Assembly (NCBI GenBank): GCA_902787575.1
Contig: CADAGX010000009.1
Span: 26,240 to 90,239, forward strand
Reading direction: 5' to 3'
DNA from: an uncultured Bacteroidales bacterium
GTDB lineage: Bacteria > Bacteroidota > Bacteroidia > Bacteroidales > Bacteroidaceae
Length of the DNA: 64,000 nt
This document shows, piece after piece, positions 9,535-62,257 of this stretch (position 1 is its first letter; each line of letters opens with the position of its first letter). The notes under the pieces are model-generated. The model had not been told where the DNA came from. It searched no databases and saw only the letters and a program-made list of their open reading frames with translations. The position numbers and the translations under genes were made by a program.

Positions 9535-10035
9535 TCAGTCTGTCGTGGGAACAAAAGGCGGCGTCAGCAATTCAAGTGACGGGTCGTACGTGTCGGAGAA
9601 AAGAAGGTAGGTGTTTGCTGTTTCCGAAAGTTGAAGTTGTCCGTCGCGAAAGTCGAACGTCTTCGACTTGCCCAGTTTGTTCGCATATGTCCTGCTAAAA
9701 GGATCGGAGTCGCCCACCTTTGTTGCGATAAAATCATTGCCCCAAATGAGACTGTTTCCTATGATTCTAAAACTCACAGAGAAAGAATTTGCTCCGAATC
9801 TCCCTTCTGCTCTCCCTATTTGTTCTTTGAACGAAACAGTGTATCGCGGGTTGCCCACGCCATTTCCCACCTCCGTATATTTCCCATCTTCGGCGTATCC
9901 CGCCAGATACCACTTGTTCTTCTGCAACGCCGCTGCCTTTGCCGACGGATCTCCTTCATCGTCGCTGCACGAACTTAGGAATGGGATTGCCACGATGGCA
10001 ACTGCCATGATTGCAAAAAATAGGTTCTTTTTCAT
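9535..10035 (-). CDS. Small lipoprotein with META-like domain
   Basis: A 166-residue predicted lipoprotein: signal peptide MKKNLFFAIMAVAIVAIPFLSSC with Cys23 as the lipidation site and an acidic stretch (SDDEGD) after it, a common outer-membrane lipoprotein export feature in Bacteroidota. The rest (NKWYLAGYAEDGKY, then a beta-rich GRFGANSFSVSFRIIGNSLIWG) resembles the META/HslJ fold. That is a pattern match, not a firm assignment. Start at 10035 is set by the signal peptide and a good promoter 30 bases upstream. Function unknown. Confidence 0.7.
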   Translation of the reverse strand: MKKNLFFAIMAVAIVAIPFLSSCSDDEGDPSAKAAALQKNKWYLAGYAEDGKYTEVGNGVGNPRYTVSFKEQIGRAEGRFGANSFSVSFRIIGNSLIWGNDFIATKVGDSDPFSRTYANKLGKSKTFDFRDGQLQLSETANTYLLFSDTYDPSLELLTPPFVPTTD

Positions 10036-10064
10036 GCTTTTAGAAATTTGGGTGTAAATCTCTG

Positions 10065-10096
10065 CAAAAATACTGAAGTAAATTTTATTGTCCAAG
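10065..10096 (-). promoter_or_regulatory. Promoter of the META-like lipoprotein gene
   Basis: Minus strand: CTTG (-33), 20-base spacer, TATTTTTG (-7, perfect TAnnTTTG). It ends 30 bases upstream of the start at 10035. Confidence 0.65.
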
Positions 10097-10170
10097 TATC
10101 TTTCATAAAAATAATACATTCGTGGCATCTTTTTTTACTCGACAAGCGTGAACGCGAAGAACGAAAAGAC

Positions 10171-10257
10171 GGAATTTGACAAGCAAATTCCCTACATTGC
10201 AGTGTTCGCGTTTAGATCTTCGCGATTTTGCAGTAGGGAATTTGCTTGTCAAATTCC
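10171..10257. repeat. 87-bp palindromic intergenic element, copy 1
   Basis: Two 21-base hairpins in inverted orientation, at 10171-10191 and 10237-10257, separated by exactly 45 bases. Each hairpin has 8-nt arms GGAATTTG / CAAATTCC around a 5-nt loop (CTTGT or its complement). The spacer starts CTAC and ends GTAG, extending the outer symmetry. It lies between the 3' end of rhaD and the promoter of the META-like lipoprotein gene. The same layout recurs at 56036 and 62153. Confidence 0.9.
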
Positions 10258-10289
10258 GTTTGTGGCGTAGTGCATCGTGCTTCCGCTCG

Positions 10290-11111
10290 TCAGCAGGGGC
10301 GTTTGGTGGGCAGGTGGAAGACCTGCTGCACCTCGCGCATGGCCTCGGGCGTCATGCCGTCGGGCTCGGAACCCATGGAACGGGCGCACATATAGATGTT
10401 GGCGGCTTTGCAAAGCACGTCGGTCTGGTCGAAGGCGTCCATGATGTCGGTGCCGACGGCCACGGTGCCGTGTTTCTCCCACAGCACCACGTCGTGCTCC
10501 TTTATCTGTTCCAGTGTGGCGTCGGCCAGCTCTACGCTGCCGGGCAGTTTGTACGGCACGATGCCGATGCCCAGCGGTGCGAAGGCCAGCGTCTCGGGTA
10601 TCATGCTCCAGAGCACGCGCGTCATCTCGCCGGGGCGCAGAAAACGCTGTATGTGGCTCATGGCTACGAGCTCGATGGGATGGGTGTGGAGCGTGGCCTT
10701 GTAGGTGCTGCCCGTGCCAAGCAGGTAGTCTTGCAGTGCCAAGTGCGACGGCAGCTCGCTGGTGGGCATCACCGGCAGGTCGGCGATGATTTCGTACGAG
10801 GCGCAGTCGGGGCAGATGCGTATGACGGAGCCGTTCTGCATGGGTTGGCGTGCGAGGTCACGCATGCGCTTGCCGGTGCCTTTGACGTAGAAAAACTTGC
10901 CGCGCAGGTTGGGCAGTGTCTTGCCGATGGGCTGTGCCGGAGCCAGTGCGGGCAGGGCGGCCATTTCGGTGTCTGCGAACTCGGTAATGTTGACGGTGAT
11001 GTTGCCGCCGTTGCGCTCGGCCCATCCTTTTTGCCACAGATAGCCGGTCACTTCGGCCACTTGTTCTATCACCTCGCGCAGGGCGGGGCGTGAATCCAGA
11101 ATGCTGCTCAT
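10290..11111 (-). CDS. rhaD: Rhamnulose-1-phosphate aldolase
   Basis: A 273-residue class II aldolase that splits L-rhamnulose 1-phosphate into dihydroxyacetone phosphate and L-lactaldehyde. Key features are WAERNGGNITVNI near the N-terminus (substrate phosphate loop), the Zn ligands in LHTHPIEL (about residues 144-151) and the third histidine in LWEKHGTVAVG (about 214-224). Length matches RhaD. It is the last gene of the rha set, four bases after rhaT. The start at 11111 is preferred over an upstream in-frame ATG inside rhaT. Confidence 0.95.
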   Translation of the reverse strand: MSSILDSRPALREVIEQVAEVTGYLWQKGWAERNGGNITVNITEFADTEMAALPALAPAQPIGKTLPNLRGKFFYVKGTGKRMRDLARQPMQNGSVIRICPDCASYEIIADLPVMPTSELPSHLALQDYLLGTGSTYKATLHTHPIELVAMSHIQRFLRPGEMTRVLWSMIPETLAFAPLGIGIVPYKLPGSVELADATLEQIKEHDVVLWEKHGTVAVGTDIMDAFDQTDVLCKAANIYMCARSMGSEPDGMTPEAMREVQQVFHLPTKRPC

Positions 11112-26062: not shown

Positions 26063-26335
26063 ATGAACATTAAACCTTTAGCAGACCGCGTGCTGATAGA
26101 ACCGGCACCGGCAGAGACAAAGACAGTGGGTGGTATCATCATTCCCGACACAGCAAAGGAGAAACCGCTTCGCGGCAAGGTGGTGGCCGTAGGTCACGGC
26201 ACGAAGGACGAAGAGATGGTGCTGAAGGCTGGCGACGAGGTGCTCTATGGCAAGTATGCCGGCACGGAGCTGGAGTTCGACGGCCAGAAGTATCTGATCA
26301 TGCGTCAGAGCGACGTGGTGGCAGTGCTGGCATAA
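26063..26335 (+). CDS. groES: Co-chaperonin GroES
   Basis: A 90-residue protein, normal for Gro[35 protein letters not shown] holds the conserved N-terminus and mobile loop (about residues 17-32), and [13 protein letters not shown] the second conserved block. It caps the GroEL cavity. groEL follows 67 bases downstream. I found no CIRCE operator and no clear TAnnTTTG promoter directly upstream. Confidence 0.97.
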
Positions 26336-46300: not shown

Positions 46301-46525
46301 CATCACGCCATCCGGTGCATGTTTCTTTCGCGTCACGTGTAGGGAATTTGCTTGTCAAATTCCGCCATCACGCTATCCGGTGCATGTCTTTTCGCGTTAC
46401 GTGTAGGGAATTTGCTTGTCAAATTCCACCATCACGCCATCCGGCGCATGTCTTTTCGCGTCTCGGGTAGGGAATTTGCTTGTCAAATTCCGCCATCACG
46501 CTATCCGGTGCATGTTTTTTGCCCT
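46301..46525. repeat. 64-bp tandem array carrying the same palindromic core
   Basis: Three and a half direct units of 64-65 bp, each a CATCACGC(C/T)ATCCGG(T/C)GCATG segment, a TTTTCGCG segment and a 21-base hairpin identical to that of the 87-bp elements (46343-46363, 46407-46427, 46471-46491). Units start at 46301, 46366, 46430 and 46494. All three hairpins point the same way. It fills the space between the convergent glnN and BspA-like genes. Confidence 0.92.
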
Positions 46526-56030: not shown

Positions 56031-56035
56031 CAGAC

Positions 56036-56122
56036 GGAATTTGACAAGCAAATTCCCTACGGCGAGCCATTAGGTATATGTCGTATTCACGCCACGGGTA
56101 GGGAATTTGCTTGTCATATTCC
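56036..56122. repeat. 87-bp palindromic intergenic element, copy 2
   Basis: Hairpins at 56036-56056 and 56102-56122 in inverted orientation, exactly 45 bases apart, spacer starting CTAC and ending GTAG. The second hairpin has one mismatch (CATATTCC). It lies between convergent cutC and the CxxC-repeat lipoprotein gene. Confidence 0.9.
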
Positions 56123-56136
56123 GTTCCTCAGAGAAT

Positions 56137-62058: not shown

Positions 62059-62152
62059 GCAGTGCATAGTCCATAGTGCATAGTCCACAGTTCATAGTTT
62101 CTCCCTTGTCTCCGTCGTGGGGCAGGGGAGAAACTTTTTTGTGCATTTCTTC

Positions 62153-62239
62153 GGTCTTTGACAAGCAAAGACCCTACGGGTGGCGAGGGCTAGCGCGTTG
62201 TGTTTCGGCTCGCCGTAGGGAATTTGCTTGTCAAATTCC
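62153..62239. repeat. 87-bp palindromic intergenic element, copy 3, with compensatory stem
   Basis: Hairpins at 62153-62173 and 62219-62239, inverted, exactly 45 bases apart, spacer CTAC...GTAG. The left hairpin has arms GGTCTTTG / CAAAGACC instead of GGAATTTG / CAAATTCC: both arms changed so pairing is kept. Lies between convergent lipoprotein copy B and the DUF4248 gene. Confidence 0.9.
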
Positions 62240-62257
62240 GTTGGCACGATGTTTTTC

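Follow-up and report, generated by a model that had tools for sequence, protein, structure and literature searches.

In this study, we analyzed a window of 64,000 nucleotides of DNA from an uncultured Bacteroidales bacterium (positions 26,240 to 90,239 of contig CADAGX010000009.1, assembly GCA_902787575.1), in which pairs of short inverted hairpins recur. These hairpins very probably constitute a GTAG-tagged family of repetitive extragenic palindromes (REPs), present singly or as dimers resembling bacterial interspersed mosaic elements (BIMEs) and REP doublets forming hairpins (REPINs), and linked to a REP-associated tyrosine transposase (RAYT). The sequence family looks new, while the kind of element is already known. 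By analogy with characterized systems, its copies were probably spread by the matching transposase gene of the same bacterium. The window lies on contig C9 of a draft genome, here G000, of 2.65 Mb in 34 contigs (87% complete).

In the REP unit, GTAG is followed by an 8-bp stem whose two arms enclose a 5-nt loop; a G usually comes after the second arm. The whole-genome search for the hairpin that the preliminary description had proposed was carried out with a 13-base core, of which the draft contains 66 exact matches, compared to none in the reversed sequence used as a control. A looser search with a 25-base pattern and up to three mismatches returned 70 matches (control, 0). The working list comprised the 68 copies within the stretches extracted, so that four weaker matches to the 25-base pattern, located elsewhere, are absent from it. 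The GTAG tag was present in 62 of these 68 and different or missing in 6, and two variable stem positions were complementary in 64 of the 67 copies readable for pairing (AA/TT in 39, TC/GA in 23 and CA/TG in 2) and unpaired in the remaining 3. The unit thus has the 20–40 bp length and the conserved pairing of GTAG REPs. Likewise, it is both multicopy, with its 66 cores, and extragenic, as none of the 36 clusters of copies lay within a gene called by a home-made caller based on codon usage. Since each arm pairs with itself in dimers with unlike arms as well, the conserved unit is the single hairpin and not a long inverted repeat. When folded with DNA parameters, all 12 dimers tried, of both types, preferred one long hairpin, so that folding alone does not decide which form is actually used.

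A RAYT/IS200-like gene flanked by the same hairpin, which the preliminary description had suggested looking for, was indeed found. The draft contains a single match to Pfam Y1_Tnp, at C1:149956-150246, with a score of 36.4 that passes the cut-off of 23. This gene has five REPs on its 3′ side and another that ends 5 nt before its ATG. The best NCBIfam name for the Y1 protein was REP-associated tyrosine transposase (NF047646, REP_Tyr_transpos; E 9.6e-19). A profile of this RAYT and seven relatives from the same genus (8 rows) had Escherichia coli TnpA-REP (4ER8) as its top solved structure (E 3.9e-7), with the alignment covering the HuH-to-tyrosine region. H87 and H89 (the HuH motif), W133, Q134, H140, R143 and Y154 were invariant in all eight rows, and position 139 was E in G000 and D in the other seven; in E. 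coli TnpA-REP, we take Tyr115 to be the catalytic tyrosine. The W, Q, E/D, H and R residues are spaced like E. coli W94, Q95, E100, H101 and R104, which are discussed with regard to GTAG recognition in PMC6006769. The REP at C1:150429-150455 occupies the place of the ribosome-binding region before the RAYT gene. In that position, it might allow translation of the RAYT to be regulated by the enzyme itself or by the fold.

We also examined the geometry of neighboring copies, defined as two listed copies less than 200 bp apart. Of the 30 such pairs, 14 had GTAG outside (head-to-head), 11 had it inside (tail-to-tail) and 5 were direct, and 16 of the 68 copies were solitary, with no neighbor within that distance. 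The offset between the cores of tail-to-tail pairs was 66 in 7 of the 11, with 63, 64, 87 and 109 once each, and the head-to-head offsets were 42 (five pairs), 43 (two), 55, 56, 83, 84, 84, 85 and 189. The common head-to-head dimer measures 71–72 bp. Regular distances of the BIME/REPIN kind were therefore found in both orientations (66 in 7/11 and 42–43 in 7/14). The 87-bp double hairpin first presented as the element is not the element itself but a recurrent dimer, one of several types in a mosaic family, tail-to-tail with a 37-nt gap between the full units. Similarly, its fixed 45-base spacing holds for 7 of the 11 tail-to-tail pairs and not for the four others, nor for the head-to-head, direct or solitary copies.

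In 200,000 simulations with uniform gaps of 20–100, seven equal gaps out of 11 were never seen, and neither were five out of nine when three related gaps were merged into one. In line with this regularity, CCCTAC occurred at 27 places within 150 bases upstream of tagged copies, and in 17 of these the gap was precisely 37 nt, compared to an expectation of 0.011 per gap; 14 of the 17 represent both ends of seven pairs and three the end of a different hairpin. Regarding the spacers, whose content had been described as mostly unrelated, the gap of the pair at 10171 resembled none of the other six (at most 30% identity to every other gap compared) and seven further comparisons gave 46–51% identity, but three dispersed dimers, on C14, C15 and C21, shared gaps that were 92–97% identical. 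Two head-to-head dimers were each identical at two places, and larger duplications may account for these and for the three similar tail-to-tail gaps. The fixed gap is probably best read as the result of dimers being inherited as units, with propagation as units probably accounting for the spacing and a demand of the enzyme complex possibly contributing. All seven head-to-head pairs with offsets of 42–43 joined an AATTTG with a TCTTTG stem. With a heterodimer probability of 0.447, the chance of this is about 0.004 for the seven pairs and 0.02 for the five distinct spacers. A heterodimer rule for head-to-head pairs was nonetheless dropped and is not claimed, because the longer pairs in G000 (83–85) are homodimers, as are many of those in other genomes.

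The three CCCTAC places outside the seven pairs belong to a second GTAG-tagged hairpin with a CAATCGC/GCGATTG stem, which was found at 18 places in G000 with up to three mismatches (C2:283434, C8:35391, C16:18841 and 15 more), 12 of them with GTAGGG. Three main-family REPs face the end of this hairpin at the same 37-nt gap, and in one of these places the far arm of the second hairpin is altered. It is conceivable, and in our judgment rather unlikely, that the RAYT machinery left the 37-nt tail-to-tail gap as its footprint, by inserting or retaining new units at a fixed distance from a GTAG hairpin already in place. If true, such a footprint would explain both why one gap length occurs among unrelated gaps and why it recurs in three places at a hairpin unrelated in sequence.

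Within the window, the three pairs previously reported at 10171-10257, 56036-56122 and 62153-62239 were confirmed, each with 21 + 45 + 21 bases and a spacer bounded by CTAC and GTAG. However, a fourth site had been overlooked, namely a direct array of three REP copies at 46339-46492, with a period of 64 bases and intervening stretches that are near-copies of each other (Table 1). The statement that each pair is the same hairpin inverted is strictly true of the first pair only, since the second carries one stem mismatch and the third combines two different stems, GGTCTTTG and GGAATTTG. An inverted-repeat scan of the window recovered all three among its ten pairs, with an outer inverted repeat of 27 bases at 10169-10259. 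A perfect 8-bp hairpin directly following a four-base tag occurred eight times in the window for GTAG and not once for each of the control tags GTGG, GATG, GAGT, CTAC, CATC, GGAT and TGAG. Core matches with up to two mismatches numbered 10, compared to 1.35 expected, and 10 was reached in none of 100 shuffles. A search of positions 10000-10400 against Rfam gave seven matches with E values up to 5, mostly to microRNA models, which fit any long hairpin; all were below the gathering scores and were rejected.

Table 1. REP copies and gaps in the window, and the copy preceding the RAYT gene (contig C1 of G000)
Feature	Position	Strand
REP copy, AATTTG stem, left half of first pair; GTAG at 10195-10192	10170..10195	-
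37-nt gap of first pair, CTAC to GTAG, unlike the other six gaps compared	10196..10232	.
REP copy, AATTTG stem, right half of first pair, tail-to-tail	10233..10258	+
REP copy 1 of direct array, 64-bp period	46339..46364	+
REP copy 2 of direct array	46403..46428	+
REP copy 3 of direct array	46467..46492	+
REP copy, AATTTG stem, left half of second pair; just behind CutC gene (end 56030)	56035..56060	-
37-nt gap of second pair	56061..56097	.
REP copy with one stem mismatch (CATATTCC), right half of second pair	56098..56123	+
REP copy, TCTTTG stem variant, left half of third pair	62152..62177	-
37-nt gap of third pair	62178..62214	.
REP copy, AATTTG stem, right half of third pair	62215..62240	+
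REP copy ending 5 nt before the RAYT start codon	G000 C1:150429-150455	

The hairpin pattern occurs in eight named assemblies (12 stretches), labeled Prevotella sp., Prevotellaceae, Bacteroidaceae, Bacteroidales or, in one case, uncultured bacterium. The genus of the window is probably Prevotella-like. For a systematic comparison, we used a set of 139 genomes of the same genus, G000 included, of which 43 (again with G000) contained a match to the G000 RAYT. A GTAGGG hairpin with a perfect 7–8-bp stem was present at seven of the nine short-frame RAYT loci scanned (G000, G140, G108, G073, G058, G078 and G146). At an eighth (L103, in G050), the GTAGGG hairpins had one stem mismatch, and at the ninth (L104, in G133), which lies near a contig end, no GTAGGG hairpin was seen. 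None of 21 other Y1-like loci of the genus, 20 with frames of 356–543 aa and one of 157 aa, had a GTAGGG hairpin with a perfect stem. At L095-L101, L105, L106 and L108-L118, the Y1-domain frames measured 356–543 aa, with no GT[AG]G hairpin in the stretch scanned. Proteins of this size are apparently another subclass. A scan of IMG/VR with the RAYT alignment returned two relatives, encoded on viral contigs (L147 and L148).

Between genomes of the genus, the REP stems vary, while GTAGGG is constant and the loop type is kept within each RAYT group (CTTGT, CTCGT and CCCCGT versus CATG and CGTG). Five of the eight aligned RAYTs, all second-group, contain a GTAGGG hairpin in frame between HuH and Tyr, an insertion that in this alignment was found neither in the G000 RAYT nor in that of G140. 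In a search of ten genomes, the G108 REP occurred in one (19 copies) and the G078 REP in four, all second-group (62 copies in G078, 24 in G050, 21 in G073 and 14 in G058); the latter was not found in the fifth second-group genome, G146. Across the 139 genomes, the first-group REP pattern was present in four (60 in G000, 5 in G140, 4 in G108 and 3 in G014) and the second-group pattern in 16 (178 in G146, 110 in G077, 72 in G078, 71 in G058, 19 in G073 and 1–10 in eleven others).

With regard to gene context, all copies had been placed at gene 3′ ends in the preliminary description. This is correct for the three window pairs but does not extend to the genome, where 11 of the 28 classifiable clusters lie between divergent genes. 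The others of these 28 were convergent (10) or co-directional (7), and the remaining 8 of the 36 had no called neighbor on one side; one cluster called convergent, that before the RAYT gene, is really co-directional, the miscall resulting from an extension of the RAYT frame across the copy. As divergent, co-directional and convergent regions make up 45, 38 and 17% of the intergenic DNA of the window by length, convergent sites are over-used. This over-use, together with the compensated stems and the position of all three window pairs behind a gene end, would suit hairpins kept mainly as RNA elements, such as terminators or 3′ stabilizers, whose dispersal is incidental. We nevertheless regard this explanation as very unlikely, given the clusters between divergent genes, the lack of a T run after the hairpins displayed, and the presence of a GTAG tag, a family-specific loop and a linked transposase, none of which a terminator needs. 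Should the hairpins, once transcribed, influence mRNA ends, this would be a secondary effect.

Less credible still is that the hairpins are terminal inverted repeats of miniature inverted-repeat transposable elements moved by a DDE transposase, which the inverted pairs of near-fixed length and the 27-base outer repeat of the first pair might suggest. Against this, the solitary copies and the five direct pairs do not show paired terminal repeats, pairing occurs in both orientations, the arms are conserved hairpins in their own right, also where those of a pair differ, and the linked transposase belongs to the Y1 type. A gap of fixed length and varied sequence, as well as the short direct array with its 64-bp period, also recalls CRISPR-like repeats with fixed-length spacers. 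However, the intervening stretches of that array are near-copies and not unique spacers, three dispersed pairs share almost identical gaps, and the pairs are inverted and scattered, which makes this the least credible of the explanations considered.

Several observations weigh against the assignment to a RAYT-linked REP family. The NF047646 score of the G000 protein (67.7) is below the NCBIfam cut-off of 80, and copies between divergent genes are common (11/28), unlike in the REP-rich genomes treated in PMC3733652. GTAG is directly preceded by CT in 23 of the 62 tagged copies, but nearly as often, in 20, by GG, so that CT is merely suggestive of cutting there. No RAYT of its own was found for the CAATCGC/GCGATTG hairpin, the draft having one Y1_Tnp match. 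Among the 12 REP-bearing relatives for which no short RAYT had been found, seven had no match to the RAYT alignment, namely G077, an 88% complete draft with 110 second-group REPs, and G072, G069, G051, G070, G005 and G014, with 1–10 copies; the other five (G148, G083, G113, G048 and G055) showed only other Y1-like frames of 177–520 aa. As all of these genomes are drafts, gene loss, an assembly gap or past spread are possible in each, including G077. Moreover, no movement was observed. A search for an empty site at the class II aldolase locus, with a 1.8-kb query that matched 103 other genomes of the genus, yielded none. The gene matches listed outside G000 begin at query base 778 or later, and the REP part of the query matched nothing other than the pair of G014 itself, on a different contig; no junction was readable.

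For the GTAG-tagged REP family, a mechanism can be proposed from characterized RAYTs, in which, according to PMC8266576, GTAG and the hairpin are recognized in single-stranded DNA and cutting occurs at CT. By analogy, the G000 RAYT would bind GTAG and the hairpin in single-stranded DNA, its tyrosine would cut at a nearby CT, and this cutting may move or copy REP units into new intergenic sites.

Other repeats were noticed near REP copies. Nearly identical long flanks surround the copies at C17:21 and C17:51672 and those at C20:35463 and C30:1661, with a TGTAGGTTTTTTC stretch upstream of the REPs at both pairs of sites; the C17 and C20/C30 sites are larger repeats carrying REPs. At L003, L014 and L022, clusters of a CACGTCGCAT-type short repeat, a different family, adjoin REP copies.

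The likeness to REP/BIME elements mobilized by RAYTs, drawn in the preliminary description from gammaproteobacteria, is supported by the linked RAYT, the 66 cores and the dimers, here in a Bacteroidales host. The statement that no description was known stands for the sequence family, as no paper in the open-licence PMC literature was recognized as describing it, but not for the kind of element: a GTAG REP superfamily with head-to-head and tail-to-tail dimers was described by Di Nocera et al. 2013 (PMC3733652), and the excerpts of that work already include dimer spacers of conserved length and varying sequence. Judging from these excerpts, both that superfamily and the G000 REPs have a terminal GTAG, a compensated stem of 6–9 bp, a linked RAYT, and head-to-head, tail-to-tail and head-to-tail dimers 20–100 bp apart, heterodimers among them; tail-to-tail spacers in the superfamily are generally variable, with some similar in length and different in sequence, as in G000. 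The GTAG repeats covered there come from Proteobacteria, Cyanobacteria, Chloroflexi and PVC, and Bacteroidetes are given only CGTC repeats, in contrast to GTAG in G000, whose stem was not recognized among those named in that text. With the present family, a Bacteroidales genus gains a clear example of a GTAG-REP/RAYT system, and the general picture of REPs is left unchanged. A single genus with differing RAYTs and REP stems, a constant GTAGGG and group-wise loops is, in addition, useful for studying hairpin recognition by RAYTs.

Other counterparts are TnpA-REP subclasses, chiefly 2.4 and 2.6, which PMC6006769 places in Bacteroidetes, with GT[AG]G hairpins around the gene, as here. The REP between HuH and Tyr that marks subclass 2.4 is shared by the five second-group RAYTs; the G000 RAYT differs from this subclass in lacking the insertion, which the same source gives as predominant and not universal, and in its short, simple REP stem. 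The REPINs of Pseudomonas fluorescens SBW25 (PMC3116915) are, like the G000 dimers, RAYT-linked inverted doublets whose length is fixed and whose spacer is less conserved, foldable as one hairpin; they differ in that excision is reported for SBW25, whereas the 37-nt tail-to-tail type is common in G000. Finally, the E. coli system and that of G000 have in common inverted units joining two stem variants and the spacing of the RAYT W, Q, E/D, H and R residues, but E. coli REP stems need a bulge, whereas those of G000 are perfect and closer to the 8-bp type of Stenotrophomonas maltophilia.
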